This document shows, in pieces, positions 5,873 through 33,524 of a stretch of 64,000 nt of DNA. Source of the DNA: Amycolatopsis sp. 195334CR (lineage in GTDB: Bacteria > Actinomycetota > Actinomycetes > Mycobacteriales > Pseudonocardiaceae); NCBI RefSeq assembly GCF_017309385.1, contig NZ_JAFJMJ010000001.1:2666001-2730000 (forward strand). The letters are read 5' to 3'. How positions within the stretch are numbered: the stretch's first letter is position 1; each line of letters starts with the position of its first letter. Position numbers and translations under genes: made by a program. The notes beneath the pieces are model-generated. The model was not told the origin of the DNA and ran no database searches. It saw only the letters and a program-made list of their open reading frames with translations.

Positions 5873-5968
5873 GGGCCCCGCCCCGGTTTTTTAGTGTGAC
5901 TACGGCGAAGTACCCGTTGTCAAGGCGGGAAAGATGCCTTGACAACGGGTACTTCGCCGTGTTTTTGG
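5873..5968 (+). terminator. Long hairpin, family A copy 1 (terminator-like repeat)
   Basis: Perfect 25-base arms at 5902-5926 and 5936-5960 enclose the 9-base loop GGGAAAGAT. The outer part of the arm is ACGGCGAAG and the inner part is GTCAAGGC. GTTTTTGG follows on the + strand, as for a terminator of the GH76 gene. About 30 bases of 5' flank, GGGCCC through CCCCGGTTTTTT to GTGACT, are also shared with the copy at 33438-33524. It lies between convergent genes. Confidence 0.85.
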
Positions 5969-6073
5969 CTGGGGACCGGGGTGGGATGGGGAGTCTGGGC
6001 GGTGGTTTCGGTTTTGCGCCCGGGTTCTGTTTGTGCCCGGGTTCTGGTCTGTGGCCGGGGGCGGCCTTGGTGG

Positions 6074-6958
6074 TCAGCCTCGGCGTTGTTGAGGGCAGCC
6101 GCAGGAGGTGCGGTGTTGGAAGGTGGGGGCCAGGCGAACCGAGTCCGGGCGGCGGTCCGGGGTGGTGATCCTGCTGATCAGGGTGTGGACGGCGCGCCTG
6201 CCGATCTCCTCGATGGGGGGCGCCATGGTGGTCAGAGCGGGATCCACCTTGCCCATCCAGTCCGCGTCCCCGTAGCCCGCCAGGCCCAGTTCCTCGCCTA
6301 GCCGGAGGCCTCGGCGGTGCACTTCGTAGTGCACGCCGATCATCATCGCTTCGCTGGCGACCACGAGTGCGGTGGGTGCGTCCGCCATGTCGAGCAGTCG
6401 TCCGGTGGCGGCGGCCGCTCCACCTGCTGTCGACTCGCCGCAGGCGACCAGGTCCGGTTGCCACGCGAGGCCCGCTCGGCCCAGGCCGAGGCGGTAGCCG
6501 AGGGCGCGTTCGTCGTTCGCGGCTATGCCCACCGCGCCGGAGATCAGCCCGATCCGCTCGTGCCCGGCGCCGGCCAGGTGGCGGACCAGGTCGCACATGG
6601 CCTGGATGTTCTCCGTCCCCACCTGGTCCACGTCCCCCCGCGTGGCCAGCCGGTCCATCAACACCGTCGGCACGCCCAGGCGCACCAGGCTGGTCACCAC
6701 CACGTCGTCCCCGGCGGCGGGCGTGAGCAGGATGCCGTCGATGCCCCCCGCGCGCAGCGAGCGCACGGCGTCCATCTCGACCCTGGCGGCGTCCTCGGTT
6801 TCGGCGAAGGTCACCGCGCAGCCCGCGTCGGCGGCGGCGCGTTCGATCGCCCTGGACAGTGCGGTCGCGTACGGGGTGGCGTCGAACGCCATCGCCACGC
6901 CCAGCCGATGGGTGACAGGCGCGCCCCAAAGTGGAATGTCGTGTGTCAGTGCGGTCAT
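6074..6958 (-). CDS. LacI-type sugar-binding regulator domain lacking the HTH
   Basis: 294 residues. It is a periplasmic-binding-protein-like effector domain of the LacI/GalR family ending in TSCGCP. The usual N-terminal helix-turn-helix and hinge (about 60 residues) are absent: the protein begins MTALTHDIPLWG and enters the first strand (HRLGVAMAF) at about residue 17. It is a paralogue of the complete LacI protein encoded immediately upstream, sharing exact strings such as DRLATRGDVDQVG and LGYRLGLGR. The start is ATG 6958 behind GGGAGAG, with short spacing. An extension to 7069 adds no HTH. It could form heterodimers with the full regulator or act as a ligand sensor. Confidence 0.8.
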   Translation of the reverse strand: MTALTHDIPLWGAPVTHRLGVAMAFDATPYATALSRAIERAAADAGCAVTFAETEDAARVEMDAVRSLRAGGIDGILLTPAAGDDVVVTSLVRLGVPTVLMDRLATRGDVDQVGTENIQAMCDLVRHLAGAGHERIGLISGAVGIAANDERALGYRLGLGRAGLAWQPDLVACGESTAGGAAAATGRLLDMADAPTALVVASEAMMIGVHYEVHRRGLRLGEELGLAGYGDADWMGKVDPALTTMAPPIEEIGRRAVHTLISRITTPDRRPDSVRLAPTFQHRTSCGCPQQRRG

Positions 6959-7085
6959 CTCTCCCGGCCCCTCGATGCCTGAATGAGAACGTGCCCGCCC
7001 GATAGACGCTCTCGAAACTACCGGCGCCGAAGATATCCCCGATTCGGGCGTCATCCGGTCGGGAGTCACTCGATGAAGCAGAAAT

Positions 7086-8123
7086 TCAGCGAACCGGGTG
7101 AATTCCGGCGCAGCCGCACGACTCTCGGTGTCGCAGGGTCGGGGGCAGCCGGACCACCTCGGCCTTGCGGTCCGGGTCGGCGATCCTGGCCAGCAGCAAC
7201 CGCACCGCGCGGCGGCCGATCTCCTCGATCGGCTGCGCCATGGTGGTCAGCGGCGGGTCGACCAGATCGGCCCACTCGACGTCGTCGTAGACCACCACCG
7301 GCAGGTCGCGCCCTATTTTCAGGCCGCGGCTGCGTGCCTCGTGCAGCACGCCGACCATCATGCCGTCGTTGGCCACCACCAGCGCCGTCGGTGGTTCGGG
7401 GAGGGCGAGCAGGGTGCGCAGGGCCGCCGCCCCGCCGTCGCGTGAGGAGTGTCCGCATTCGACCAGGGACGGGTTCCACACCAGCCCGCCGCGCCCCAGC
7501 CCGAGCCGGTAGCCGAGCGTGCGTTCCTCGCTCGTGGACAGTCCGGCCGCGCCGCTGATCAGGCCGATCCGGCGGTGGCCGAGTGAGGCGAGGTGCTCGG
7601 TCAGCGCCGAGGTCGCCTGGATGTTCTCCGCGCCGACCTGGTCCACGTCCCCGCGGGTGGCCAGCCGGTCGACGAGCACCGTCGGCACGCCCAGCGACAC
7701 CAGTTCCCCGACCACCTGGCCGTCACCGGGCGCCGGCGTGATCAGCAGGCCCTCGACCCGGCGTGACCGCAGCGCGCGCACGGTCGACTGCTCGGTCTCC
7801 AGCTCGTCGTGGGTGTCGGCCAGCAACACCGTGTACCCGGCGGCCGCGGCCTCGCGTTCCACGGCCTGCATCAGCATCGCGAAGTACGGGTTCGCCATCA
7901 GGGAGATCGCCACGCCGATCGACCGCGTGCCGCCGGTGACCAGCGAGCGCGCGATCGCGTCGCCGGTGTAGCCGGTGGTCTCGATGGCCCGCAGCACCGC
8001 GGCCCTGGTCTCCTCCGCCACCGCGCGCGTGCCGTTGACCACGTGTGACACGGTGGTGATCGAGACGCCGGCCATCTCGGCGATGTCGCGCTGGGTCGGG
8101 CGGGACGAGCGTCCTGGTGGCAC
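7086..8123 (-). CDS. LacI-family transcriptional regulator of the adjacent sugar operon
   Basis: 345 residues. The N-terminal HTH (RPTQRDIAEMAGVSITTVSHVVNG, about 7-30) and hinge are intact and are followed by the type I periplasmic-binding-protein-like sensor domain ending in ESCGCAG. GTG 8123 is chosen because GAAGGGAG precedes it and because longer starts would place the 24-bp operator inside the gene. Divergent from the frcB-like gene and separated by that operator, so it most likely represses the transport operon and itself, with release by the imported sugar or its phosphate. Confidence 0.9.
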   Translation of the reverse strand: MPPGRSSRPTQRDIAEMAGVSITTVSHVVNGTRAVAEETRAAVLRAIETTGYTGDAIARSLVTGGTRSIGVAISLMANPYFAMLMQAVEREAAAAGYTVLLADTHDELETEQSTVRALRSRRVEGLLITPAPGDGQVVGELVSLGVPTVLVDRLATRGDVDQVGAENIQATSALTEHLASLGHRRIGLISGAAGLSTSEERTLGYRLGLGRGGLVWNPSLVECGHSSRDGGAAALRTLLALPEPPTALVVANDGMMVGVLHEARSRGLKIGRDLPVVVYDDVEWADLVDPPLTTMAQPIEEIGRRAVRLLLARIADPDRKAEVVRLPPTLRHRESCGCAGIHPVR

Positions 8124-8145
8124 GGGGCTCCCTTCGCCGGTGTTG

Positions 8146-8169
8146 GCAAGCGTTTGCGCAAACGCTTGC
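8146..8169. promoter_or_regulatory. LacI-family operator in the divergent promoter region
   Basis: A perfect 24-bp palindrome with half GCAAGCGTTTGC and its reverse complement. It contains two overlapping LacI-type cores, AAGCGTTT and AAACGCTT. It lies 22 bases upstream of the lacI start and 64 bases upstream of the frcB-like start, a position that would control both directions. Confidence 0.85.
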
Positions 8170-8233
8170 GCGGCAGCATAGCCCGATCTACCGTCCCGGG
8201 TCATCTGTTCCGATCCTCAACGCGGAGGATGTC

Positions 8234-9247
8234 GTGCGAAAAATCTTGACCGCGGGGCTGGCGGTCGCGGTACTGGTGTCGGCGGGCGGGTGCACCGTCG
8301 AGCGGCACTGGGGCGGCAACACCAACTCCGGTGGCGGGGGCGGCAAGGCCAAGGTCGGCCTGGTCACCAAAACCGACACCAATCCCTACTTCGTCGAACT
8401 GCGAGCCGCGGCGAGCGCGGCCGCGCAGGCCAACGGCGCCGACTTCAGCGCGCTGGCCGGCCAGTTCGACGGGGACAACGACGGCCAGGTCCGGGCCATC
8501 GAGAACCTGATGCAGCAGGGCGCCACCACCATCCTGATCACGCCGAGCTCGTCCACCGGCGTGCTCGACGCGATCGACCGGGCGCGCAAGTCGGGCGTGC
8601 TGGTGATCGCGCTGGACACCGCGACCGAACCGGCGGAGGCGGTCGACGCCACCTTCGCCACCGACAACTTCGCGGCGGGCCAGCAGCAGGGCGCCTACGT
8701 GAAGGCCGCGCTCGGCGGCGCGCAGCCGAAGCTGTTCATGGTGGACGGCACCGCGGGCAGCACGGTGGACACCCAGCGGCACACCGGGTTCCTCTCCGGC
8801 ATCGGCCTGGCCGACGGCGCACCCGAGATCAAGGGCGCCACGCCGGCCAACGGTGACCAGAGCACCGCGCAGCAGGGCGTGGAGAACCTGTTGCAGCGCA
8901 CCACCGACATCAACGCCGTGTACACGATGAACGAGCCGATGGGCCGCGGCACCTACGCGGCGCTGAAGGCCCGCGGGCTGACCGGCCAGATCGTGATGGG
9001 CTCGATCGACGGCGGCTGCGAAGGCGTGCAGAACGTGCGCGACGGGCAGTACGCGGCCACCGTCATGCAGTTCCCGAAGAAGATGGCCGAGCAGGGCGTG
9101 CTCGCCGCCGTCGAATACGCCAAGACCGGCAAGAAGCCGACCGGGTTCAACAACACCGGGTCCGTGGTGATCACCAACAAGCCGATGCCCGGGGTGGAAA
9201 GCCGGAACACCGACTGGGGTCTGCAGAACTGCTGGGGGGAGAAATGA
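8234..9247 (+). CDS. Sugar ABC transporter substrate-binding lipoprotein (FrcB-like)
   Basis: 337-residue lipoprotein. Signal VRKILTAGLAVAVLVSAGGC places the lipidated Cys at residue 20, followed by a Gly-rich tether and a type I sugar-binding fold. VGLVTKTDTNPYF, FATDNFAAGQ, YTMNEPMGRGTYAALKA and SIDGGCEGVQNV match the fructose/ribose-type binding proteins, closest in pattern to FrcB. GTG 8234 has GGAGG five bases upstream. First gene of a + strand operon (SBP, permease, ATPase, PfkB kinase, second kinase, SDR) under the LacI operator. Fructose or a related hexose or pentose is likely, but the ligand is inference. Confidence 0.9.
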   Translation: MRKILTAGLAVAVLVSAGGCTVERHWGGNTNSGGGGGKAKVGLVTKTDTNPYFVELRAAASAAAQANGADFSALAGQFDGDNDGQVRAIENLMQQGATTILITPSSSTGVLDAIDRARKSGVLVIALDTATEPAEAVDATFATDNFAAGQQQGAYVKAALGGAQPKLFMVDGTAGSTVDTQRHTGFLSGIGLADGAPEIKGATPANGDQSTAQQGVENLLQRTTDINAVYTMNEPMGRGTYAALKARGLTGQIVMGSIDGGCEGVQNVRDGQYAATVMQFPKKMAEQGVLAAVEYAKTGKKPTGFNNTGSVVITNKPMPGVESRNTDWGLQNCWGEK

Positions 9248-10227
9248 GCACCGCCACCGTTGAGTCCGATCGCCCCTCCGTCGGCGAGTTCTTCCTGCGC
9301 GCCCCGGCGGTCGGCCCGGCGCTGGCCCTCGTGGTCGCCGTCGTGGTCTTCTCGCTGTCCACCGACACCTTCCTCAACCTGGACAACATCTCCCTGGTGG
9401 TCCAGCAGTCGCTGGTGATCGGCACGCTCGCACTCGGGCAGACGCTGATCATCCTCACCGCGGGCATCGACCTGGCGAACGCGGCGTCGATGGTGCTGGC
9501 CACGCTGATCATGGCGAAACTGCTGGCCGGCGGGGTGTCCGGGATCTTCGCGCTGCTGCTCGGGATCGTGGCCACCGTGCTGGTCAGCGGGGTGGTCGGC
9601 TCGCTGGTCACCAAGGTGAAGCTGCCGCCGTTCATCGTCACGCTCGGCGCGCTGACCATGCTCACCGCGGCGGGCAGGCTGTTCGCCGGCGGCGAGGCGG
9701 TCCCGGTGGCCGACGGGCTGCTCAACTGGCTCGGCACCCGCCGCTACCTGTTCGGCGGCATCGAGATCACCTACGGCATGACGCTGGCGCTGATCATGTA
9801 CCTGGTCATGTGGTACGCGCTGACCAGGACGGCGTGGGGCAAGCACGTGTACGCGGTGGGCAACGCGCCGGAGTCCGCGCGGCTGTCCGGGATCAAGGTC
9901 AACCGCACGGTGCTCTCGGTGTACCTCGTCGCGGGCGTGATCTTCGGCATCGCCGCGTGGCAGGCGCTGGGCCGCGTGCCCAACGCCGACCCGAACGCCT
10001 ACCAGCTGGGCAACCTCGACTCGATCACCGCGGTGGTGCTGGGCGGAACCAGCCTGTTCGGCGGCCGCGGTTCGGTGCTCGGCACGATGATGGGCGCGTT
10101 GATCGTGGCGGTGCTGCGGTCCGGGCTGACCCAGCTGGGCGTGGACGCGCTCTACCAGGACGTGGCGACCGGCGCGCTGGTGATCGCGGCCGTCGCGGTG
10201 GACCGACTCGCCAGGAGGCAGCGATGA
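9244..10227 (+). CDS. Sugar ABC transporter permease (FrcC/RbsC-like)
   Basis: 327 residues with about nine or ten membrane helices. The RbsC-type pattern includes LALGQTLIILTAGIDLANAA, the cytoplasmic coupling motif region GSLVTKVKLPPFIVTLGALTM and YAVGNAPESARLSGIKVN, ending with TAVVLGGTSLFGGRGSVLGTM split across the last helices. ATGA overlap with the SBP stop (9244-9247) and with the ATPase start (10224) shows tight translational coupling. Two permease copies probably pair with two ATPase copies, as in the ribose/fructose class. Confidence 0.93.
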   Translation: MSTATVESDRPSVGEFFLRAPAVGPALALVVAVVVFSLSTDTFLNLDNISLVVQQSLVIGTLALGQTLIILTAGIDLANAASMVLATLIMAKLLAGGVSGIFALLLGIVATVLVSGVVGSLVTKVKLPPFIVTLGALTMLTAAGRLFAGGEAVPVADGLLNWLGTRRYLFGGIEITYGMTLALIMYLVMWYALTRTAWGKHVYAVGNAPESARLSGIKVNRTVLSVYLVAGVIFGIAAWQALGRVPNADPNAYQLGNLDSITAVVLGGTSLFGGRGSVLGTMMGALIVAVLRSGLTQLGVDALYQDVATGALVIAAVAVDRLARRQR

Positions 10228-11042
10228 CTTCGTCGAACCAGCCCACCCTGTCCGCCCGCGGCCTGGTCAAGCGCTACGGCCGGGTGACCGCGATCGACGG
10301 CGCCGACTTCGACCTGTACCCCGGCGAAGTGCTCGCCGTGGTCGGGGACAACGGTGCCGGGAAGTCCAGTCTGATCAAGGCGCTGTCCGGCGCGCTGGTG
10401 CCCGACGAGGGCGAGATCCAGGTCGACGGCGAGGCGGTGCACTTCCGCACGCCGATCGACGCGCGCAAGTTCGGCATCGAGACGGTGTACCAGGACCTCG
10501 CCGTGGCGCCCGCGCTCGACATCGCGTCGAACATGTTCCTGGGACGGGAAAAGCGGCGCTCGGGGCCGTTGGGTCTGGTGCGCAAGCTGGACACGGCGAC
10601 CATGCGCGCCGAGGCGCAGCGGATCCTCGACGAGCTGGGCATCCAGATCAAGTCGATCACGCAGCCGGTGGAGACGCTCTCCGGTGGTCAGCGCCAGGGC
10701 GTGGCGGTGGCGCGCGCGGCGGCGTTCGGCACCAAGGCGGTGATCATGGACGAGCCGACCGCGGCGCTCGGCGTCGCCGAGTCCGGCAAGGTGCTCGCGC
10801 TGATCGACCGGATCCGCGAGCGCGGCCTGCCGGTGGTGCTGATCAGCCACAACATGCCGCACGTGTTCGAGATCGCCGACCGGATCCACGTGCACCGGCT
10901 GGGCAAGCGGGTGGCCGTGGTCTCGCCGAAGACGCACACGATGAACCAGGTGGTCGGGCTGATCACCGGGGCGCTGCGGATCGGTGAGAACGGTGAGGTG
11001 GAAGAGGTCCCGGCGGCTGTGCGGGCGGGTCTGTCCGGATGA
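10224..11042 (+). CDS. Sugar ABC transporter ATP-binding protein (FrcA-like)
   Basis: 272 residues with a single ABC domain. Walker A is GDNGAGKSS (41-49), the Q-loop is VYQDLAVAP, the signature is LSGGQRQG (about 152-159), Walker B is VIMDEPTAALG and the H-loop is LISHNMPHV. RbsA and XylG have two fused ABC domains, whereas FrcA-type proteins have one, which supports the fructose-type assignment. ATG 10224 follows AGGAGG. The stop overlaps the start of the PfkB kinase gene. Confidence 0.93.
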   Translation: MTSSNQPTLSARGLVKRYGRVTAIDGADFDLYPGEVLAVVGDNGAGKSSLIKALSGALVPDEGEIQVDGEAVHFRTPIDARKFGIETVYQDLAVAPALDIASNMFLGREKRRSGPLGLVRKLDTATMRAEAQRILDELGIQIKSITQPVETLSGGQRQGVAVARAAAFGTKAVIMDEPTAALGVAESGKVLALIDRIRERGLPVVLISHNMPHVFEIADRIHVHRLGKRVAVVSPKTHTMNQVVGLITGALRIGENGEVEEVPAAVRAGLSG

Positions 11043-11866
11043 GGGTGGTACTGGCTGGACTGTCCACTGTGGATCTCGTGCAGCGGGTGGCGGAGCTGCC
11101 CGCGCCCGGGGAGAAGGTGCAGTCGCTCGCGGTCGAGGTGGCCGCGGGCGGTCCGGCCGCGAACGCGGCGGTGACGGTGGCGGCGCTGGGCGGCGAGGCG
11201 GTCCTGCTGACCGTGCTCGGTGCCCACCCGCTCGCCGACCTGGCGCGCGCCGATCTCGAGGCGTACGGCGTGCGGGTGGTCGACGCGTTGCCGTCGCGGG
11301 TTTCGCCGCCGCCGGTGAGCGCGGTGTCGGTGCGCGACGAGGACGGCGAGCGCACGGTCGTCTCGCACAACGCCGCCGACGTCCCGGATTTCCCGGTTTC
11401 CCCGTTGCTGGACGAGGTTCACGGCGACTGCGTGTTGTTGGACGGGCACCACCCCGAGCTGGCGCTGGGAGTCGCGCGGCGGGCGCGGGAACTCGGCGTG
11501 CCGGTGGTCCTCGACGCGGGGAGCTGGAAGCCCGTGCTGACGGATCTGTTGCCACTGGTGGACATCGCGGCGTGCTCGGCGAATTTCCGGGCGCCGGTCG
11601 AACTGGACGTGCCCGTGGTGATCACCACCGCGGGGGCCGGGCCGGTGCGTTATTCCACTGTGGACGATTCCGGTTCGGTGCCGGTGCCCGAGGTCGAAGC
11701 CGCCGACACGCTGGGCGCGGGGGACGTCTGGCACGGCGCGTTCGCTTACGGCGCGGGCCTTCCGCTGGTGGAGCGGATCCGCTTCGCCAACGAGGTGGCC
11801 GCCGAACGGGTGTGGCATGCGGGGCCGCGGGCGTGGGTACCCGCGGTCCGCGAAATGAGGAGATAG
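11039..11866 (+). CDS. PfkB-family carbohydrate kinase
   Basis: 275 residues. A ribokinase fold with the N-terminal Gly pair region (AAGGPAANAAVTVAALGG, about 38-55) and the C-terminal signature DTLGAGDVWHGAFAYGAG, where the second Asp is the catalytic base. It probably phosphorylates the imported sugar or a downstream intermediate in the cytosol. The gene overlaps the ATPase stop by four bases and shares the operon. The substrate cannot be read from the sequence. Confidence 0.9.
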   Translation: MRVVLAGLSTVDLVQRVAELPAPGEKVQSLAVEVAAGGPAANAAVTVAALGGEAVLLTVLGAHPLADLARADLEAYGVRVVDALPSRVSPPPVSAVSVRDEDGERTVVSHNAADVPDFPVSPLLDEVHGDCVLLDGHHPELALGVARRARELGVPVVLDAGSWKPVLTDLLPLVDIAACSANFRAPVELDVPVVITTAGAGPVRYSTVDDSGSVPVPEVEAADTLGAGDVWHGAFAYGAGLPLVERIRFANEVAAERVWHAGPRAWVPAVREMRR

Positions 11867-11876
11867 AGGGAGTGCG

Positions 11877-12512
11877 ATGACCTCGTTCGAGGACCTGCTG
11901 GAGCGCGCGCAGGGGTTGATCAAGTCCGGTGAGCGGGCCGTGCTGGGCATCGTCGGCGCGCCGGCGTCGGGCAAGACGACGCTGGCGTGGGGGCTGGCGG
12001 ACGCGCTGGGCAACCGGGCCGCGGTGGTCGGCATGGACGGGTTCCACCTGGCCCAGGTCGAACTGCGGCGGCTGGGGCGGACCGAGCGGAAGGGCGCGCC
12101 GGACACCTTCGACGCGGGCGGCTACGTCAGCCTGGTCTCGCGGCTCGCGGCGGGCGGGGAAACGGTGTACGCCCCGGAATTCCGGCGGGAGATCGAGGAG
12201 CCGATCGCGGGTGCGGTGGCCGTGCCGCCGGACGTGCCGCTGGTCATCACCGAAGGCAACTACCTGTTGGTCGACGAGGATCCGTGGTCGCGGATCCCGC
12301 CGCTGCTGGCGGAAACGTGGTTCCTCCGCCCGGACGAAAACGACCGCATCGAGCGGCTGGTGTCGCGGCACCGGCACTACGGCCGTTCACTGGTGGAGGC
12401 GCAGCAGCGGGCGCGGGGCTCGGACCAGCGCAACGCCGACCTGATCGCGACCACGGCTTCACGCGCGGACCTGATCGTCGAGGACATGTCGCTGGCGAAC
12501 TTCTCGCTCTAG
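11877..12512 (+). CDS. FrcK-like P-loop kinase (uridine kinase-like fold)
   Basis: 211 residues. Walker A GAPASGKTT at 27-35, then MDGFHLAQVELRRLGR with the substrate-binding Asp, and TEGNYLLVDEDPW as the Walker B-like/NYL block. This is the pattern of the kinase encoded next to frcBCA in rhizobia and related to phosphoribulokinase/uridine kinase. Its position directly after a FrcBCA-like transporter and a PfkB kinase supports a role in processing the imported sugar. Ten bases separate it from the PfkB gene. Confidence 0.85.
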   Translation: MTSFEDLLERAQGLIKSGERAVLGIVGAPASGKTTLAWGLADALGNRAAVVGMDGFHLAQVELRRLGRTERKGAPDTFDAGGYVSLVSRLAAGGETVYAPEFRREIEEPIAGAVAVPPDVPLVITEGNYLLVDEDPWSRIPPLLAETWFLRPDENDRIERLVSRHRHYGRSLVEAQQRARGSDQRNADLIATTASRADLIVEDMSLANFSL

Positions 12513-12522
12513 GGTGACGCCT

Positions 12523-13998: not shown

Positions 13999-14009
13999 GC
14001 CACGACCCT

Positions 14010-14025
14010 ACTGGTTCAAGCCAGT
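14010..14025. promoter_or_regulatory. GntR operator box 1
   Basis: ACTGGTTCAAGCCAGT: 5-base outer arms ACTGG/CCAGT, 12 bases upstream of the gntR start. It belongs to the same 16-mer family as the boxes at 14055 and 14071. Confidence 0.75.
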
Positions 14026-14028
14026 TCC

Positions 14029-14057
14029 TTGACAAGGCCGCCATCGGGTACTTCACT
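14029..14057 (+). promoter_or_regulatory. Candidate sigma-70 promoter of the methyltransferase gene
   Basis: TTGACA at 14029-14034, a 17-base spacer, then TTCACT at 14052-14057. The -35 is perfect and the -10 weak. The -10 overlaps operator box 2, consistent with repression. Confidence 0.45.
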
Positions 14058-23236: not shown

Positions 23237-23289
23237 GCAGTGAATGTGGCTTTCGCAGCGCCAGGCGCTGTGAAAGCCACATTCACTGC
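23237..23289. repeat. Long hairpin, family C (terminator-like repeat)
   Basis: 26-base arms at 23237-23262 and 23264-23289 pair throughout with one G-U. The outer part is GCAGTGAATGTGGCTTTC. Only one base separates the formal arms, so the real loop must open a few inner G-C pairs. It lies 27 bases beyond the IS and 23 bases after the 3' end of the minus-strand gene at 23313. Before the IS arrived it would have sat between the convergent MFS gene and that gene. Confidence 0.8.
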
Positions 23290-26447: not shown

Positions 26448-26451
26448 GCGC

Positions 26452-27135: not shown

Positions 27136-27182
27136 GCCGGAACACGGTACAGGGGTGACGTTGCGCACTCTTCGGTGTGTCG

Positions 27183-27590
27183 CTAAAGCAACGTGAGCAG
27201 GCCCGCGACGGCGCCCGCCGCCAGGCCGAGCAGGAGCGCGAGCAACAGCACCCAGCGCGCGGCCACCGGAGCCGGTGCGCTCGCCTGGCGCGTGACCGCG
27301 ACGGGATCCGGCGACGGCTGGGACGCCGGCGCGGGCTCCAGTGCCGCGCGCTCGCGTTCCAGCGAACCGGCGTCCGCGCCGGACAGCAGCCCGTACCCGG
27401 CGGGCGCCGGGAAGGCGGGCTTGGCCAGGTGCGTGGTCGGCGGCTCCTCGACCGGCGCGGCCGGTGTGGCCGGTTCCGGCTGGCGGACCGGCTGGGCGGG
27501 CTGGGGTGGCTGGGGTGGCTGGGGTGCCCGCACGGCCTGCGCCCGCAGTGCCTCGGCCAGCAGGCGCTCGGGGTCTTCCGGCTCACTCAC
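27183..27590 (-). CDS. Pro/Ala-rich C-tail-anchored protein of unknown function
   Basis: 135 residues. The first 25 are acidic and helical (SEPEDPERLLAEALRAQ). The middle is Pro/Ala/Gln-rich with a repeated PQPPQPPQP element. One membrane helix closes the protein (WVLLLALLLGLAAGAVAGLL, about 114-133), leaving almost no residue outside. I do not recognise the family. It could link a cytoplasmic partner to the membrane. It follows nagA by 18 bases on the same strand. Confidence 0.65.
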   Translation of the reverse strand: MSEPEDPERLLAEALRAQAVRAPQPPQPPQPAQPVRQPEPATPAAPVEEPPTTHLAKPAFPAPAGYGLLSGADAGSLERERAALEPAPASQPSPDPVAVTRQASAPAPVAARWVLLLALLLGLAAGAVAGLLTLL

Positions 27591-27608
27591 GCGGAAAGGG
27601 TATCGGGG

Positions 27609-28781
27609 TCACCCGGCGTCGGGAATCCACTGGCCCCGGCGCAGCACCCGCGACGGCCGCAGCTGGTCGTCGAGCACCACCAGGTCCGCGGCCAGGCCCG
27701 GCCGCAGCGACCCGGTCTCCTTCTCGATGCCCAGCAGTTCCGCCGGTCGCGTCGAGGTGGCGTGCACCGCTTCGGCCACCGACAGCCCGGCACCGGTGAC
27801 CAGGTTGCGGAAGGCGGCGTCCATGGTGAGCGTGCTCCCGGCCAGCGAGCCGTTCTCGGCCAGCGTGGCCACCCCGCCGGTGACGTCGACCTCCAGCCGC
27901 CCGAGCCGGTAGCTGCCGTCGGCCGCGTCGGTGGCCGACATGGCGTCGGTGACCAGCACCGTCCGCTCCGGCCCGGCGTGCCGGGCGGCCAGCCGCAGCA
28001 TGGTCGGGTGGACGTGCACCAGGTCGCAGATCAGCTCCACAGTCACCCGCTCGTCGTCCAGCAGGGTGCCGATCGGGCCGGGTTCGCGGTGGTGCAGCGG
28101 GCGCATCCCGTTGAACAGGTGCGTGGCCACGGTGGCCCCGGCGTCGATGGCCGGCCGGATCTGCTCCTCGACCCCGTCGGTGTGCCCGATCGCGGCGATC
28201 ACCCCGCCCTCGGTGAGCTGGCGGATCGCCTTGACCCCGCCGTGCAGTTCGGGCGCGAGCGTGATCATCCGGATCGCGTCCTTGCCCTCGCGCAGCAGTT
28301 TGGTCACCGTGGCGGTGTCCGGTTCGAGCAGTGCGCCCGGATCGTGCGCCCCGCAGCGGGCCTTCGAGATGAACGGCCCCTCCAGGTGCACCCCGGCCAG
28401 CTCGCCGTCGGTGACCAGCTCGGCGAGCGCGCCCACCTGGCGGGCCAGCTCCGGCACGGTCTCCGAGACCAGGCTCGCCAGCAGGGTGGTGGTGCCGTGC
28501 CTGCGGTGCGCCTGGACCGCGCGCAGCAGCTGTTCCGGCTGGCCGCTGGAAAATGATCCACCACCACCGCCGTGGCAGTGCGTGTCGACGAACCCGGGGA
28601 CGACCAGCGCGCCACCCACGTCGAGGTGTCTCCCCGCCGGCGGCGTGCCGGCGCCGACCGCGCTGATCGAGCCGCCCGACACGGCCAGCCAGGTGGCGTC
28701 GTTGGTCTCCTCGTCCGGTGTGGCCAGCCGGCCCCCGGTGATCACGAAATCGATTTCGGCACCCGTCACGCGCTCCAGCAT
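27609..28781 (-). CDS. nagA: N-acetylglucosamine-6-phosphate deacetylase NagA
   Basis: Deacetylates GlcNAc-6-P to GlcN-6-P in amino-sugar and cell-wall recycling (cytosol). 390 residues, amidohydrolase fold. DTHCHGGGGG is the metal site near the N-terminus, and HLEGPFI, GHTDGVEEQI, ATHLFNGM and VTDAMSATD are in the correct order, the last holding the catalytic Asp. ATG 28781 abuts the DasR-like box and has no ribosome-binding site. GTG 28769 has GGAG three bases before it and is a good alternative. The box suggests control by a DasR-like GntR regulator. Confidence 0.93.
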   Translation of the reverse strand: MLERVTGAEIDFVITGGRLATPDEETNDATWLAVSGGSISAVGAGTPPAGRHLDVGGALVVPGFVDTHCHGGGGGSFSSGQPEQLLRAVQAHRRHGTTTLLASLVSETVPELARQVGALAELVTDGELAGVHLEGPFISKARCGAHDPGALLEPDTATVTKLLREGKDAIRMITLAPELHGGVKAIRQLTEGGVIAAIGHTDGVEEQIRPAIDAGATVATHLFNGMRPLHHREPGPIGTLLDDERVTVELICDLVHVHPTMLRLAARHAGPERTVLVTDAMSATDAADGSYRLGRLEVDVTGGVATLAENGSLAGSTLTMDAAFRNLVTGAGLSVAEAVHATSTRPAELLGIEKETGSLRPGLAADLVVLDDQLRPSRVLRRGQWIPDAG

Positions 28782-28797
28782 ATTGGTCTAAACCAGC
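28782..28797. promoter_or_regulatory. DasR-type (dre) operator of nagA
   Basis: ATTGGTCTAAACCAGC matches the known streptomycete DasR consensus core (TGGTCTAGACCA) at all but two positions. It touches the ATG of nagA. No dasR gene is in the window. Confidence 0.75.
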
Positions 28798-28859
28798 TGA
28801 TGGGTCACAACCCGCCAACCATGTGCGGAGATACGCCGTTCGAGGACGCTCTTCCAGGG

Positions 28860-29435
28860 CTAGTTGGGGGATTGCATCGCCCGCTGCAGGGCCTCCAGTG
28901 CCCGGCTCGCGGTCGACTTCACGGTGCCCTTGGAGATGCCGGCGGCCTCGGAGATCTCCGCTTCGGACAATCCGCCATAGTAACGGAGCACCAGCACCTC
29001 GCGCTGCCTCGGCGGCAGCTTGGACAGCGCGTTCACCACCGCCTGGTGCTCGGTGGACAGCATCGCCAGGCTCTCCGCGGACCGCGCGTTGACCGCGTGC
29101 GGCGGCACGTACTCGCGGGCGGTCTTCCGCCGGCGCAGCACGCTGCGCGAGCCGTTGACCACGGCGGTTCGCAAATAACCAACAGCGGCGGCGGCATCCC
29201 GGAGGCGGCCCCAGTTGCGGTGCAGCCCGGTGAACGCCTCCTGCACCACGTCCTCGGCGGTGGCCGGTTCGTCGACCAGCAGGATGGCCAGCCGCACCAG
29301 GCGCATCCGGTGGGTGCGGTAGAGGTCCTCCAGGGTCAGCGGCGCGGCGGGGGGCGGCGGGGCCGCCGGTCCGTCGACCGCGCGCAGGTGCCCGAGCGTG
29401 CGCTCCACGCTCTGCTCAGCGCTCGCCTCGTGCAT
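28860..29435 (-). CDS. SigE-type ECF RNA polymerase sigma factor
   Basis: 191 residues. Region 2: LEDLYRTHRMRLVRLAILLVDEPATAEDVVQEAFTGLHRNW (shown from its start, about 40-80), region 4: LSKLPPRQREVLVLRYYGGLSEAEISEAAGISKGTVKSTASRALEAL. The pattern of WGRLRDAAAAVGYLRTAVVNGSRSVLRRRK between them is the SigE-50-family type common in actinobacteria. ATG 29435 is preferred over the upstream extension to 29591, which is not protein-like. No anti-sigma gene follows: the next gene downstream is nagA. Confidence 0.88.
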   Translation of the reverse strand: MHEASAEQSVERTLGHLRAVDGPAAPPPPAAPLTLEDLYRTHRMRLVRLAILLVDEPATAEDVVQEAFTGLHRNWGRLRDAAAAVGYLRTAVVNGSRSVLRRRKTAREYVPPHAVNARSAESLAMLSTEHQAVVNALSKLPPRQREVLVLRYYGGLSEAEISEAAGISKGTVKSTASRALEALQRAMQSPN

Positions 29436-29602
29436 GGTCCGCCCGTCCCGTGCTGGTCTCCGCCCGTACCCGGGAATGATCGCCGGGTCGGTTACCGTTT
29501 CCTGCGCTCGCCTGCTCACACCGGCAACACGCACGCAAAGCGTATCGGGTTGGCCAGGCGGCGCCACTGTCCGAACCCTCAGATACCGCATCCGGAGGCG
29601 TC

Positions 29603-29884
29603 ATGGCCTGGTTCCTCGTCGAAATCCGCTACGTCCAGGAGAAGTACGGCGAGGTGCGGCCGGCGCACCGGGCCTTCTTGGCGGACCTGGCCGAGAAGGG
29701 CGTGGTGGCGCTCGGCGGGCCGCTGACCGACGGCACCGGCGGGATCACCCTCTACCAGGCCGAGGACGAAGAGGCCCTGCAGAAGATCATCGACCAGGAC
29801 CCGTACTTCCTCGAAGGCGCGGTCGCCGAGCGGACGGTGCGCGGGTTCGACCCGAAGATCGGCGCCTGGCTGCCGTCGGCCTAG
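29603..29884 (+). CDS. YciI-family protein
   Basis: 93 residues with a ferredoxin-like fold. VEIRYVQEKYGEVRPAHRAFLADLAEKG contains the conserved HRAFL motif with the catalytic-type His, and ALGGPLTDGTGGITLYQAEDEEAL follows. YciI proteins have a hydrolase- or oxygenase-like pocket, and some are involved in dechlorination. The role here is unknown. GGAGG lies five bases before ATG 29603. Confidence 0.9.
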   Translation: MAWFLVEIRYVQEKYGEVRPAHRAFLADLAEKGVVALGGPLTDGTGGITLYQAEDEEALQKIIDQDPYFLEGAVAERTVRGFDPKIGAWLPSA

Positions 29885-29923
29885 GCACGCGGCCGGTGAG
29901 CCCGGGCGCTCACCGGCCAGTGG

Positions 29924-30808
29924 TCAGGCGCGTGTCGCGGCGCGGCCTCCGTGACCGGTCACGGAGGCTTCCCGCGCGCCGCGCTTCGCGATGTCCTCCA
30001 GTGCCAGCTTGTCCGCCGACGGCACCCGTGAGCGCGAGCCGAGTTCGATGATCGGCGGCAGGAAGGCCCGGATCAGCTTGAGCGCGCCGACCCAGCGCGG
30101 CACGTGGATCGTCCGGCCGCGGCGCAGGATGCCCGCCTCCAGGCAGTCCAGTGCGGTGGACAGCGGGTAGGTCTTGCCGATCAGTCCGGGCATGCCCGCC
30201 CGCAGCTTGCCGAACACCGGGTGCGCGTCGGCGCTTTCCACCAGGTCCGTGCGAATCCAGGTCGGGTGCGCGACACCGACCTTCACGCCGAGGTGGGCGA
30301 CTTCGGCGCGCAGGCTGTTCGAGAACGCTTCGACGCCCGCCTTGGCCGCGGCGTAGTTGGCCATGCCGGGCGCGTGCGTGATCGCGGCCAGCGAGGAGAT
30401 GGCCAGCAGGTAGCCCTTGCGCTCGATGACGTGCGGCAGGGTCACCCGGAACGTGCGCCAGACGCCGAGCAGGTCCACCTCGATCACCTTCTCGAAGGCG
30501 ACCGGGTCGACCGAGCGGACGAACCCGGTGGACGCGATGCCCGCGTTGGCGATCACCACGTCGATGCCGCCGAAGTGCTCGACCACCTCGCCGGTGACGC
30601 GTTCGAGCGCCTCCCAGCTGGTCACGTCGGCCTCCCAGGACCGGGCCGCGGTGCCGATGCGCTCGGCCACCTTCGCCTGCTCCTCGGCTTCGAGGCCGAC
30701 CAGTGCCACCTTGGCGCCCCGCGCGGCCAGCCGCTCCGCGAGCCCGGCGCCCATGCCCCGCGCCGCACCCGTGATGAGCACGACCTTTCCGCTGACCTTG
30801 CGTGCCAT
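29924..30808 (-). CDS. SDR-family oxidoreductase
   Basis: 294 residues. TGAARGMGAGLAERLAARG (14-32) is the Rossmann dinucleotide motif. NAGI (about 89-92) and the catalytic YAAAK (Tyr about 153, Lys about 157) follow with an SSLA Ser. A long C-terminal part (about 240-294, with IIELGSRSRVPSADK) is typical of actinobacterial SDRs acting on lipids or steroids, but the substrate is not known. The start is ATG 30808, with CGAGGAGG upstream. Divergent from the F420-type oxidoreductase gene with a shared operator-like box. Confidence 0.9.
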   Translation of the reverse strand: MARKVSGKVVLITGAARGMGAGLAERLAARGAKVALVGLEAEEQAKVAERIGTAARSWEADVTSWEALERVTGEVVEHFGGIDVVIANAGIASTGFVRSVDPVAFEKVIEVDLLGVWRTFRVTLPHVIERKGYLLAISSLAAITHAPGMANYAAAKAGVEAFSNSLRAEVAHLGVKVGVAHPTWIRTDLVESADAHPVFGKLRAGMPGLIGKTYPLSTALDCLEAGILRRGRTIHVPRWVGALKLIRAFLPPIIELGSRSRVPSADKLALEDIAKRGAREASVTGHGGRAATRA

Positions 30809-30863
30809 GGTGCCTCCTCGTCGAGTTCTCCTCCGGGACCGTACCTCAACTTACCGCGAGTAG

Positions 30864-30879
30864 GCTACTGGTCGGTAGC
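30864..30879. promoter_or_regulatory. TetR-type operator candidate
   Basis: GCTACTGGTCGGTAGC has 5-base arms and lies between divergent SDR and F420-type genes. Its core TACTGGTCGGTA differs at two positions from the reverse complement of the core of the palindrome at 4799. Confidence 0.5.
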
Positions 30880-30922
30880 AACGGCTCGGAATGAACCGGT
30901 CACCGTGCGGGTTGGCACCGGC

Positions 30923-31744
30923 ATGGCATTCGAACTCGGCAAGATCGGCGTCTGGCGGCCGCTGTGGACCTCCACCCCGGAGCTGGCCGCGAAGGCGGAG
31001 GAACTCGGCTACGGCACCTGGTGGATCGGCGGCTCACCGCCCGCCGAGCTGGAGATCGTCGAGCAGCTGCTCGAAGCGACCAGCGCGCTGGTGGTGGCCA
31101 CCAGCATCGTGAACATGTGGTCCGCCGACGCCGCCGAGGTGGCGCGCTCGTACCAGCGCATCGAGCAGAAGTACCCCGGCCGGTTCCTGCTCGGTGTCGG
31201 GGTCGGGCACCCGGAGGCCACGCAGATCTACCAGAAGCCGTACGACAAGATCGTCGAATACCTGGACCAGCTCGACGCCGGCGGCGTGCCGGTGGAGGCG
31301 CGGGCGCTGGCCGCGCTCGGCCCGAAGGTGCTCAAGCTCTCCGGCGAGCGGACGCTGGGCGCGCTGCCGTACCTGACCACGCCGGAGCACACCCGGCAGG
31401 CCCGTGAACTGCTCGGCAAGGACAAGCTGCTGGTCGCCGAGCACAAGGTGGTGCTGGACACCGACGACGCGCGGGGCCGCGCCACCGGCCGCGAGATGGT
31501 CAAGATGTACCTCCAGCTGCGCAACTACACGAGCAACCTGAAGCGCCTCGGCTTCACCGACGAGGACGTCGCCGGTGAGGGCAGCGACCGGCTGATCGAC
31601 GCGCTCGCGCTGCACGGTGACGCGGAACACATCGCGGCCGGGCTGACCGCGCACCTCGACGCCGGTGCCGACCACGTGGCGATCCAGCCGCTCGGCGACG
31701 ACCCGGTGCCCGCGCTCGAAGCGCTGGCCTACTTGGCCAAGTAG
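30923..31744 (+). CDS. LLM-class F420-dependent oxidoreductase
   Basis: 273 residues of the luciferase-like monooxygenase fold, with the N-terminus MAFELGKIGVWRPLW, the WWIGGSPPAEL strand-loop, IVNMWSADA and FLLGVGVGHPEA. These fit the short F420-dependent subfamily found in mycobacteria and Pseudonocardiales. It uses reduced F420 rather than FMN, but the substrate is unknown. ATG 30923 is used; a GTG at 30905 is possible. Its last codons lie in a 20-bp palindrome shared with the convergent HD gene. Confidence 0.88.
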   Translation: MAFELGKIGVWRPLWTSTPELAAKAEELGYGTWWIGGSPPAELEIVEQLLEATSALVVATSIVNMWSADAAEVARSYQRIEQKYPGRFLLGVGVGHPEATQIYQKPYDKIVEYLDQLDAGGVPVEARALAALGPKVLKLSGERTLGALPYLTTPEHTRQARELLGKDKLLVAEHKVVLDTDDARGRATGREMVKMYLQLRNYTSNLKRLGFTDEDVAGEGSDRLIDALALHGDAEHIAAGLTAHLDAGADHVAIQPLGDDPVPALEALAYLAK

Positions 31745-31746
31745 GC
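31727..31746. repeat. 20-bp palindrome spanning both stop codons
   Basis: GCCTACTTGGCCAAGTAGGC is a perfect palindrome. Read in either direction it is Ala-Tyr-Leu-Ala-Lys-stop, so the two convergent genes end with the same five residues. It could also serve as a bidirectional pausing or terminator stem, but the loop would be too tight without opening. Confidence 0.9.
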
Positions 31747-32295
31747 GTAGTTCTCCTGCCACTCGGCGAACCGGTCCCGGAAGTACGGGAGCCGGTCGGC
31801 GAGTGGCAGGAAGATCCGCGCGGTTTCGGCGTAGTAGCTGGCTTGCTTGGCCGGTCGCGGGTGGGTGTGCAGCCGCTGCACGTTGCTGTAGCGGTCGGCG
31901 AGCTTGATCGTCAGCACCTCTTCGGGCGCGGTGACGAACCGGCTCAGGTAGCTCTCGCGCGAACCCGACTTGGTCACCCAGTCGACGAGTTCGGCCGCCT
32001 TCGCGCCGAACTCGTCGCGGACCTCGCCCAGGCCGCACGGGGTGTCCTCGACCACGTCGTGCAGCAGGGCGGCGACCAGCACGTCCCGGTCGCGCGCCCC
32101 GGCGTCGACGGCGATCTCCAGCGCTTCCAGCAGGTGCCACGAGTACGGCTCACCGGCCGGGCGGGTTTGGTCGCCGTGGTGCGCGGCGGCGAATTCGTAG
32201 GCCCTGCCCAGTACTTCGACGGTCTCGGCGGGCAGTTCTCCGGCCAGCGCGGCCGCTGCGGACGGCCAGTCGCGCCAGGCCCCGAAAACGCGCAT
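31729..32295 (-). CDS. HD-domain phosphohydrolase (RelA/SpoT-type HD fold)
   Basis: 188 residues. HHGDQTRPAGEPYSWHLLEAL then VAALLHDVVEDTPCG and IKLADRYSNVQRL give the His, His-Asp, Glu-Asp and Asp residues of the HD domain of (p)ppGpp hydrolases. It is a stand-alone hydrolase without synthetase, TGS or ACT domains, like MESH1-type small alarmone hydrolases. The substrate may be (p)ppGpp or another nucleotide; this is inference. The gene ends in the palindrome shared with the convergent gene. Start ATG 32295. Confidence 0.85.
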   Translation of the reverse strand: MRVFGAWRDWPSAAAALAGELPAETVEVLGRAYEFAAAHHGDQTRPAGEPYSWHLLEALEIAVDAGARDRDVLVAALLHDVVEDTPCGLGEVRDEFGAKAAELVDWVTKSGSRESYLSRFVTAPEEVLTIKLADRYSNVQRLHTHPRPAKQASYYAETARIFLPLADRLPYFRDRFAEWQENYAYLAK

Positions 32296-32397
32296 CGCGC
32301 ACCCCCTTTTCGCCTGATCAGGCTAGCCGGTCGGGGTCTCTCCGGTGGCTCGTAAGATGCGGTTGAACGGCGAACCCTGCTTCGAGGAGGACCAACG

Positions 32398-33429
32398 ATG
32401 CCCATCGCCACCCCCGAGGTCTACGCGGAAATGCTGGACCGGGCCAAGGCGAACGAGTTCGCTTATCCCGCCATCAACGTGACCTCTTCGGAAACCCTGA
32501 ACGCGGCCATCCGCGGCTTCGCCGAGGCGGAGAGCGACGGGATCATCCAGTTCTCCACCGGTGGGTCGGAGTTCGCCTCGGGGCAGAAGGTCAAGGACAT
32601 GGTGGTCGGGGCGACCGCGCTGGCCGAGTTCGCGCACGTGGTGGCGGACAAGTACGACGTCAACGTCGCGCTGCACACCGACCACTGCCCGAAGGACAAG
32701 CTGGACGGCTTCGTCCGCCCGCTGATCGACATCTCCGCGGAGCGGGTCAAGCGCGGGGAGAACCCGCTGTTCCAGTCCCACATGTGGGACGGCTCGGCGA
32801 TCGACCTCGACGAGAACCTGGAGATCGCGGCGGAGCTGCTGGCCAAGACCGCGGCCGCCAAGATCATTCTCGAGGTGGAGATCGGCGTGGTCGGCGGTGA
32901 GGAGGACGGGGTCGCCAACGACATCAACGACAAGCTGTACACCGCCGACGGCGACTTCGTGAAGACGATCGACGCGCTCGGTGCCGGGGAGAAGGGCCGC
33001 TACCTGCTGGCCGCGACCTTCGGCAACGTGCACGGCGTGTACAAGCCGGGCAACGTGAAGCTGCGCCCGGAGGTGCTCAAGAACGGCCAGGCGGTGGCGG
33101 CGGACAAGCTGGGCCTCGCGGCCGGGTCGAAGCCGTTCGAGCTGGTGTTCCACGGTGGCTCTGGCTCGCTGCTGGAGGAGATCCACGAGGCGCTGTCGTA
33201 CGGCGTGGTGAAGATGAACGTCGACACCGACACGCAGTACGCCTTCTCGCGGCCGATCGCGGACCACTTCTTCAAGAACTACGACGGCGTGCTGAAGATC
33301 GACGGCGAGGTCGGCAACAAGAAGGTGTACGACCCGCGGAGCTACCTGAAGGTGGCCGAGGGCGCGATGGCGAAGCGCGTGGTGGAGGCCGCTGAGTCGC
33401 TGAAGTCGGCTGGGCAGAAGTTGAAGTAG
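32398..33429 (+). CDS. fba: Class II fructose-bisphosphate aldolase
   Basis: Zinc-dependent reversible cleavage of fructose 1,6-bisphosphate in glycolysis and gluconeogenesis. 343 residues. ALHTDHCPKDKLDGF holds the catalytic Asp and Zn His, EVEIGVVGGEEDG the following ligands, AATFGNVHGVYKPGNVKL the second His block, and VFHGGSGS the phosphate loop with the last Zn His. Length and motifs fit the bacterial FbaA type. ATG 32398 follows GAGGAGG with seven-base spacing. It is followed by a family A hairpin. Confidence 0.96.
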   Translation: MPIATPEVYAEMLDRAKANEFAYPAINVTSSETLNAAIRGFAEAESDGIIQFSTGGSEFASGQKVKDMVVGATALAEFAHVVADKYDVNVALHTDHCPKDKLDGFVRPLIDISAERVKRGENPLFQSHMWDGSAIDLDENLEIAAELLAKTAAAKIILEVEIGVVGGEEDGVANDINDKLYTADGDFVKTIDALGAGEKGRYLLAATFGNVHGVYKPGNVKLRPEVLKNGQAVAADKLGLAAGSKPFELVFHGGSGSLLEEIHEALSYGVVKMNVDTDTQYAFSRPIADHFFKNYDGVLKIDGEVGNKKVYDPRSYLKVAEGAMAKRVVEAAESLKSAGQKLK

Positions 33430-33437
33430 TTTTTCGG

Positions 33438-33524
33438 GGGCCCACCCCGGTTTTTCAGGGTGACTACGGCGAAGGCCCCGATGTCAAGGCGGGAAAGATG
33501 CCTTGACATCGGGGCCTTCGCCGT
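33438..33524. terminator. Long hairpin, family A copy 2 (terminator-like repeat)
   Basis: Perfect 25-base arms at 33466-33490 and 33500-33524 with the same 9-base loop GGGAAAGAT as the copy at 5902. The outer (ACGGCGAAG) and inner (GTCAAGGC) thirds are identical to copy 1, while the central third differs at three positions, each compensated in the other arm. The 5' flank from GGGCCC is shared too. It lies between the convergent fba and membrane-protein genes. Confidence 0.87.

Follow-up and report, generated by a model that had tools for sequence, protein, structure and literature searches.

Two intergenic hairpins in the window (the whole 64,000-nt stretch of Amycolatopsis sp. 195334CR DNA analysed here) raise the question of how long arms can change in sequence and stay perfectly paired. 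Both hairpins are real: each has 25-nt arms (5902–5926/5936–5960 in copy 1 and 33466–33490/33500–33524 in copy 2, both on the + strand) that are 100% complementary and enclose the 9-nt loop GGGAAAGAT (5927–5935 and 33491–33499). The middle eight bases read TACCCGTT and GCCCCGAT, respectively; three positions are different and, as the first-pass annotation reported, all three differences are compensated. The convergent setting it described also holds with the gene calls made in the present analysis. Copy 1 lies between genes at 4833–5855 (+) and 6074–6898 (−; start codon uncertain), copy 2 between genes at 32398–33429 (+) and 33551–34768 (−), and the upstream stop codons end 46 and 36 nt, respectively, before the main stem. 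Folded as + strand RNA, copy 1 reaches −65.4 kcal/mol (z = −8.2) and copy 2 −79.4 kcal/mol (z = −9.7) relative to shuffles.

A dispersed repeat family

The core pattern GTCAAGGC-N9-GCCTTGAC occurs at 32 places in this genome (G000), and a reversed control pattern at none. It is confirmed that the two window hairpins are members of a larger dispersed repeat family than the first-pass annotation reported; that annotation had held that a total of only two copies would speak against its reading. None of the 32 copies, each a short extragenic palindromic unit as in REP/REPIN sequences, lies inside a called gene.

Alignment of the 32 copies defines a unit of about 120 bp comprising an outer stem (P1), an internal loop, the 25-bp main stem (P2), the loop GGGAAAGAT, a U-tract and a G-rich tail, with unpaired motifs and tail conserved. 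Aligned with the other 31, copy 1 spans 5878–5998 (+; CM R1, 136.7 bits; outer limits approximate), from the outer stem through the internal loops and main stem to the start of the tail. Here, CCGCCCCGGT (5878–5887) forms the 5′ strand of P1 and pairs with ACCGGGGTGG (5975–5984), TTTTTAGTGTGACT (5888–5901) is a conserved 5′ internal loop, and the U-tract GTTTTTG (5961–5967) follows P2. Copy 2 (33442–33524, +; CM R1, 110.6 bits) is 3′-truncated, a feature absent from the first-pass annotation: it retains the P1 5′ strand, the internal loop and the complete P2 hairpin, and has lost the P1 3′ strand and the U-tract, in place of which GTTGG stands.

The repeat is placed just 3′ of genes in some soil actinobacteria. 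It reaches 87 copies in one species and, with up to two mismatches allowed, is absent from 25 of the 36 genomes compared in the genus. The 25-nt core is identical across genera; in distant relatives, which were found via this core, core and loop are retained and the rest of the stem varies. Rfam gave no match above the gathering threshold in the window, and sub-threshold matches to unrelated families near copy 1 and in L382 and L383. A search of the open-licence literature found nothing on Amycolatopsis hairpin repeats, repeat-type terminators or repeats derived from integrative conjugative elements (AICEs), a paper on REPINs being the only related one among those listed.

Further hairpin families (B, C and D) were counted roughly in the same genome and suggest that placement at gene ends, at least, may be wider. 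In family B the inner arms pair much worse (274/372 cells); perfect pairing is thus no general rule.

Paired change in the two arms

The statistical check of covariation proposed in the first-pass annotation gave a clear outcome. In the 32-copy alignment, 96.9% of pair cells are standard, against 85.2% in shuffles and 29–47% with slid partners, and 109 cells are changed on both sides (shuffle mean 25). Chance mismatches in the middle third, named beforehand as contrary evidence, were not seen.

Paired drift is also observed at orthologous sites in related genomes, from which the best-scoring copies were taken (best 40 of G074, 20 of G060 and 20 of G004). The copy-2 locus carries four different, fully paired stems in G000, G004, G060 and G074. 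At the copy-1 locus, three different paired stems occur in G000, G060 and G074, the outermost pair being broken in G060, and the hairpin is absent from G004. Across 20 comparisons at 11 loci, 52 of 160 middle pairs were doubly changed and nine were changed on one side; six of these nine fall in L003, a hybrid of two stem types, and two one-sided cells in L351 are loop-length artefacts. Fourfold-site divergence in the same comparisons was 0.194. Middle paired changes per pair are thus no fewer than fourfold divergence, which favours single-event copying, the middle eight pairs having been picked as the variable part and fourfold sites being imperfectly neutral. Over all 25 pairs the proportion (67/500 = 0.13) lies below that divergence. 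Transversions, which offer a double change no G-U intermediate, account for 32 of the 67.

One-sided states are rare, with 14 in the 2375 pairs of 95 copies. Removal of one loop artefact leaves 13 genuine mismatches (four G-T, four A-C and five other), so wobble is not clearly favoured. This count and that of private changes left out L003, L374 (indel) and five copies with another loop length. Ten G060 copies had first been dropped for a differing core; in a later parse of all 20, 19 were perfect over 24 pairs, and five A-C cells in G060 are artefacts of a longer loop. The outer stem P1 covaries among copies as well (5 of 102 left out) and tolerates G-U in its sense strand.

Single-event copying, by template switching or conversion, fits these data better than slow two-step compensation. 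Multi-base compensatory changes in perfect stems have been explained by copying of one arm (Monttinen and Loytynoja 2022, PMC8794818). Perfect stems and multi-base changes are common to both cases, although that work, in the part considered here, deals with ancestral reconstructions of RNA genes, whereas the present case concerns orthologues of a multicopy bacterial intergenic family. The combination expected from template switching, paired changes with few one-sided intermediates, is found here; private changes are nonetheless split between three compensated and three one-sided, and the position of the copies is tightly constrained. Template switching and conversion from another copy explain the double changes equally well. 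Homogenisation among copies is seen in G004 but in neither G000 nor G060. With L003, L374, the five other-loop copies, L010, L013 and L028 set aside, stem type follows the 5′ flank in two genomes (G000 and G004) and does not do so in G074; in no genome does it follow the 3′ flank. The core of L362 carries a private double change, which would speak for template switching rather than conversion by another copy. The first-pass annotation had invoked structural selection or repair in which one arm is copied to the other, a reading supported in part: its paired drift is borne out at orthologous sites, and the terminator-like placement and AICE link described below were not foreseen.

Placement after genes and a related hairpin in AICEs

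Among 98 copies with called neighbours in this genome and three related ones, 88 lie in sense orientation past a stop codon, 80 of them at a distance of 25–60 nt; 74 of the 98 occupy convergent gaps and one a divergent gap. A U-tract is visible by eye 3′ of the stem in copy 1 and most listed copies. With a stable stem, a U-tract and a short sense distance past the stop codon, the chromosomal copies look, by sequence, like intrinsic terminators. A simple terminator scan, whose loop limit is 8, did not list the hairpin, the loop of which has 9 nt. Copy 2, which lacks the U-tract and the P1 3′ strand, would at best be a weak terminator of such type. There is also a tension: if transcription stopped at the U-tract, P1 would never be transcribed whole, yet it covaries. 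The RNIE paper (Gardner 2011) reportedly describes TRIT terminators of Mycobacterium tuberculosis, for which we know of no AICE link. As far as a paper citing them portrays TRITs (PMC3526491), they and the present family share the notion of a terminator model for one actinobacterial lineage, a likeness at the level of description.

An imperfect relative of the hairpin, with a GCGT loop, recurs in RepSA-type AICEs. By tblastn, 13 of 20 sampled GCGT-loop copies have RepSA no more than 10 kb away, and another gene of the L391 element occurs in five further regions; the sample comes mostly from genomes with few such copies, the GCGT-rich G023 (31), G103 (25) and G092 (17) lying outside it. In the reverse direction, a hairpin at a like place and orientation was found at 11 of 19 other RepSA loci, with no match at the remaining eight. 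Seven genomes (G002, G006, G007, G008, G014, G015 and G018) have one R1 match and one GCGT-loop copy each; of five such single copies inspected, four are accompanied by RepSA and one by DUF5919. In 30 AICE-form copies read in the sense direction, mismatches comprise 93 A-C against 2 G-T cells and 59 other, and AICE copies thus favour the opposite strand.

The parental-like hairpin L382 adjoins genes for FtsK-type, RepSA and HTH_17 proteins and an integrase-like start, as in pSAM2/RepSA-type AICEs (PMC3218068). Unlike the present family, that account, in the part considered, describes no dispersed chromosomal descendants, and its main text never uses 'hairpin', 'inverted repeat' or 'terminator'. 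RepSA, Tra or Int genes at a like place characterize the AICE form and not the dispersed copies of G000, all 32 of which are more than 40 kb away from each of the three RepSA genes there. AICE proteins were likewise not found in 98 sequences with dispersed copies; this control is weak, since in 80 of the 98 the flanks extend for only about 2 kb per side, and the G000 distances are the better one.

RepSA number was considered as a driver of copy number and showed no visible relation by inspection: G071 has at least 60 R1 matches and no RepSA, G095 one match and seven RepSA hits, some of them fragments. Carriage by plasmids or phages was also rejected, with no core pattern in viral_contigs, no match of copy 1 in plasmids and none of the AICE form in plasmids or phages. 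tRNA attachment sites near the AICE form were rejected as well: ARAGORN placed tRNA genes in one of the 20 AICE-form regions, and in L391 a single one of undefined type. By eye, L392 shows a duplicated gene end, and L391 ends in a tRNA-like manner at a 3′ end. As regards a possible rolling-circle origin (dso or sso), the motif CCTTGAC bears a resemblance, and no more, to CTTG/A nick sites.

Origin of the family and competing explanations

We favour, with a probability of roughly 0.55, an AICE-borne hairpin that became dispersed in the chromosome and took on a second use as a terminator, its arms being kept perfect by copying. The ancestor of the ~120-bp family would be a structured single-strand element located at one terminus of RepSA-type AICEs. 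On the chromosome, copies are found mainly where intrinsic termination would be possible, within the upstream gene's 3′ UTR: a long perfect stem begins some 35 nt past the stop codon and is followed by a short U-tract. A change in one arm would soon be copied to the other, through either a replicative template switch inside the hairpin or conversion by another copy, and the arms would stay perfect. The opposite direction could also apply, with AICEs capturing a chromosomal terminator.

Tight stop-codon spacing and sense orientation would equally suit ordinary intrinsic terminators, alike by shared descent or a shared factor and without mobile origin, and by eye other hairpins fill the same gap at the orthologous site in many of the other species compared. 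However, a core identical across genera, a copy number that ranges from none in 25 of the 36 genomes compared to 87 in one species of the genus, the conserved unpaired motifs and tail, and the similar location of the AICE form make this reading unlikely. The core might instead serve as a DNA operator bound by a protein, or as a structural site, with termination incidental, as its retention with the loop in core-selected distant relatives, where the rest varies, could indicate; given the fixed orientation and distance relative to the stop codon and the single divergent gap among 98, we consider this decidedly improbable.

Selection that maintains an RNA structure by way of ordinary compensatory mutation in two steps would account for the strong covariation, the G-U tolerance of P1 and the one-sided half of the private changes (3/6). 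We regard it as quite improbable in view of middle paired changes (52/160) exceeding fourfold divergence, the share of transversions and the scarcity of one-sided states. REP/REPIN-type elements mobilised by a RAYT (Y1) transposase are likewise extragenic and palindromic with lineage-specific copy number, and the part of the REPIN study considered (Bertels and Rainey 2011, PMC3116915) reports many copies, conserved parts and compensatory changes in a variable paired spacer. The present family differs from that description in its central rather than terminal core, its placement tied to stop codons and its relation to the AICE hairpin. Moreover, Y1_Tnp (PF01797) was absent from all 60 genomes of the genus at E ≤ 1e-5 (controls positive in 5 of 14), and a RAYT/REPIN origin is rejected on this ground as extremely improbable.

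We also speculate, as an unlikely elaboration of the favoured AICE origin, that RepSA, the rolling-circle initiator of the AICE and an HUH protein, handles the hairpin as if it were an origin end and spreads it over the host chromosome as single-stranded hairpin DNA. Fold-back synthesis would complete each copy, leaving arms perfect by construction and middles rewritten, and the host would keep the copies past stop codons as terminators. If this were true, host transcript ends would be supplied by a conjugative element.

Compensatory double changes are commonly read as proof of RNA selection. With many orthologous copies in close species, the rate of simultaneous change in two arms, an open question in RNA evolution, becomes measurable against neutral divergence, and the family offers a natural test case for the evolution of perfect hairpins. 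It also connects a set of host gene ends with an integrative conjugative element, and would represent a RAYT-free route to REP-like repeats.

Architecture of a dispersed hairpin repeat

The two window hairpins (copy 1, 5902–5960; copy 2, 33466–33524) are real: rechecked in the sequence, their arms and loop have the form given in the first-pass annotation, and they fold with much greater stability than shuffled sequences (z = −8.2 and −9.7). More than two copies exist, as the pattern GTCAAGGC-N9-GCCTTGAC matches 32 places in the Amycolatopsis sp. 195334CR genome (G000; 9.93 Mb, 7 contigs, the window being 2666001–2730000 of contig C1), where the reversed control pattern has 0 matches. When all 32 copies are read in the sense orientation and aligned, the repeat unit consists of the 5′ strand of an outer stem, P1 (CCACCCCGGT); a 5′ internal loop (TTTTTAGTGTGACT); the 5′ arm of the 25-bp main stem, P2 (ACGGCGAAG-variable-GTCAAGGC); the P2 loop (GGGAAAGAT; GGGAAGGAT in one copy); the complementary 3′ arm; a U-tract with the 3′ internal loop (GTTTTTGGCTGTGG); the 3′ strand of P1 (ACCGGGGATGG); and a G-rich tail. 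Much of the 3′ part is gone in window copy 2 (L010) and in two further copies, L013 and L028. Loci L385, L386 and L387 hold decay forms, in which the hairpin is partly or wholly deleted between recognizable flanks.

The co-variation of the arms, first noticed in two copies, holds across the 32-copy alignment: 96.9% of cells are paired and 109 are doubly changed, against 85.2% and 25 in shuffles; control structures with slid partners are 29–47% paired. Eleven P2 pairs are invariant, eight of them by construction, since they belong to the core used as search anchor. Unlike P2, P1 varies partly through G-U pairs in the sense strand, including 13 at a single pair, which perhaps largely represent one inherited type.

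Paired change of the arms

The first-pass annotation proposed selection on structure or arm-to-arm copying. Copies from three other genomes (G074, G060 and G004) were paired with orthologous sites by flanking sequence, giving 20 comparisons, spread over 11 loci, in which the upstream flanks share at least 89% identity. Among the variable middle eight P2 pairs, 99 are unchanged, 52 are doubly changed and paired, and nine are changed on one side, six of the nine coming from the hybrid copy L003. Across all 25 pairs, 67 of 500 are doubly changed (32 of these by transversion) and 12 are one-sided. In the upstream genes, 738 of 3807 fourfold-degenerate sites differ (0.194); in the variable middle, paired changes per pair are thus at least as frequent as neutral-like single changes, and slow two-step compensation is therefore hard to reconcile with the data. 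When the conserved parts of the stem are counted too, the double-change rate is lower (0.13).

One-sided states are few: the 2375 pairs of 95 copies contain 14 one-sided mismatches, one being a longer-loop artefact and the other 13 comprising four G-T, four A-C and five of neither type. The perfect stems of 82 copies are of 44 distinct types, and 24 pairs of types lie one base pair apart. In G060, 19 of 20 fetched copies are perfect over 24 pairs, with 13 different stems, and 15 have a loop that differs from the one in the window. Both window loci have orthologues. Counting G000, the copy-2 locus has four paired stems in four species, and the copy-1 locus three in three species, the outermost pair being broken in G060; in G004 the latter site has a tail-like stretch and no hairpin, which suggests a deletion. 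We infer that both arms were altered in single events, and PMC8794818 proposes template switching for compensatory changes of this kind. However, changes private to one copy are evenly divided, three compensated and three one-sided.

Conversion between copies is likely to contribute alongside single-event copying. The stem distance is 3.25 of 13 between orthologues versus 4.20 for random same-genome partners (P = 0.005); stem type follows the 5′ flank in two genomes (G000, G004) but not in a third (G074), and in none of the three does it follow the 3′ flank; and L003 combines one arm from each of two stem types. Within-genome distances (2.30 in G004, 3.63 in G074, 4.75 in G000 and 5.07 for six copies in G060) make homogenization plain in G004 only.

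Position at gene ends

According to gene positions predicted by a caller written for this analysis, 28 or 29 of the 32 G000 copies lie sense-oriented 3′ of a stop codon. A four-genome set (the 32 copies of G000, the 20 top-scoring copies from G004, the 40 top-scoring from G074, and 10 of the 20 fetched from G060) yielded 102 parsed copies, 98 with neighboring gene calls. Sense orientation 3′ of a stop codon is found in 88 of the 98, and in 80 of these P2 starts 25–60 nt past the stop. The gap is convergent for 74 of the 98 copies and divergent for one; in the window, 3 of 23 gaps of at least 100 nt are convergent. The hairpin is absent from the output of a simple terminator scan, which permits loops of up to 8 only. 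Gene ends also carry other hairpin families (GAATGTGGCTTTC; ATGAGTGGGGCATTACTTGC), and inspection by eye shows different hairpins in the copy-2 gap of many among 26 other genomes. Judged from this placement, the dispersed family would act as intrinsic terminators. TRITs are a lineage-specific terminator family.

Two window hairpins (35408–35466 and 46696–46750) belong to a second dispersed family (TGCTATGAGTGGGGCATTACTTGC) and lie directly 3′ of stop codons; a further copy is in L016. The GAATGTGGCTTTC family, at 23237–23289 in the window, has variable outer arms and 53 copies in the fetched DNA; four of its five G000 loci lie 2–19 nt from the stop of the opposing gene, and it adjoins the main repeat in several loci. 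Locus L227 (G019) contains, 3′ of a gene stop, a sequencing-adapter-like stretch in which an N falls within a hairpin; this probably reflects an error of assembly.

Relation to integrative conjugative elements and distribution

L382 and L383, two weak G000 matches, are imperfect forms that carry a GCGT loop. L382 adjoins genes for DUF5919, FtsK, RepSA (PF20199, E = 6.6e-103) and an HTH_17 (Xis-like) protein, together with an integrase-like start (24 bits, under that family's cut-off), a gene set that reads as a putative pSAM2-type integrative conjugative element (AICE). L383 lies within a remnant bounded by two copies of a gene's 3′ end, which we take by eye to be acyl-CoA dehydrogenase-like, and containing an integrase fragment (PF00589, 39.7 bits). 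At L392:4800–8400 the AICE remnant lies between the duplicated acyl-CoA dehydrogenase-like 3′ ends, with a stretch like the dispersed-repeat tail just outside.

With at most one mismatch, the GCGT form occurs in 38 of 60 Amycolatopsis genomes, often as a single copy. Twenty such copies were examined within 20-kb regions, chosen mostly where a genome has few of them. In 13 of the 20 regions tblastn finds RepSA, at 7.4–9.9 kb from the hairpin; by a rough estimate this is far more than the few per thousand per copy expected when 9–10 Mb hold two or three such genes. Of the other seven, four have DUF5919, one has the L391 element's 140-aa gene and two have nothing. The hairpin is directed away from the AICE genes in all 18 regions with a gene match. 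Conversely, 11 of 19 RepSA loci have a match to R1, the covariance model of the repeat (E ≤ 6e-4), about 5–10 kb off and always directed away from RepSA; this count is conservative because loci previously fetched with a hairpin were excluded and a twentieth locus, L463, known to have one, is uncounted. None of the 32 dispersed G000 copies lies within 40 kb of the three RepSA genes there. A second AICE hairpin type, with outer stem CCCTCGC/GCGAGGG and an identical core, is present at L447, L448, L453, L454, L461 and L463.

The two forms differ in strand preference. In the outer 17 pairs of 30 AICE copies, the sense reading gives 93 A-C, 2 G-T and 59 other mismatched cells, A-C being G-T on the opposite strand, and the antisense fold is better in 25 copies and the sense fold in four. 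For dispersed copies the sense fold is better in 99 of 102, a count to which flank base composition contributes and in which related copies are non-independent. Together, these patterns suggest that the antisense strand, single-stranded as ssDNA or RNA, is the working state of the AICE form, and that the dispersed copies turned to a sense-strand role. Since seven genomes (G002, G006, G007, G008, G014, G015 and G018; neighborhoods viewed for G006, G007, G014, G015 and G018) have one R1 match and one GCGT-form copy each, the dispersed copies would appear to descend from the AICE form.

RepSA is described in PMC3218068 as an HUH-type rolling-circle initiator. Its number shows no visible relation to repeat copy number among the genus genomes, and no Y1 transposase was found in 60 of them. 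The CCTTGAC within the core resembles CTTG/A nick sites.

The 25-nt core occurs with up to two mismatches in 11 of 60 genomes, all among the 36 of the genus (G000 included), at 1 to 87 copies each, and R1 matches (E ≤ 1e-6) in 48 of 60 Amycolatopsis genomes; per-genome R1 figures of 60 mean at least 60, and palindromes can score on both strands. At up to three mismatches, a survey of 249 genomes from the order gives five with the core. Three belong to the genus; a fourth is G224, whose lone three-mismatch match may be chance; the fifth is G205, from another genus of the same family, with 42 copies, whereas the five congeners of G205 included in the survey have none. Named records with the core, among the matches listed, include at least 12 Amycolatopsis strains, Umezawaea endophytica and Actinokineospora sp. 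NBRC 105648. The family is therefore patchy and seems to have been amplified in bursts. Contigs of G010, G023 and G024 have several copies less than a few hundred bases from their starts; assemblies may therefore break at the hairpins, and draft-genome copy numbers may be too low.

The nearest repeat class is that of REPINs (PMC3116915), but the RAYT test is negative in the 60 genus genomes. No description of the hairpin family was found in the open-licence papers searched. The repeat family is real and sizeable; it is REP-like, with a probable conjugative-element origin and probable terminator use, and it lends itself well to measurements of paired mutation.
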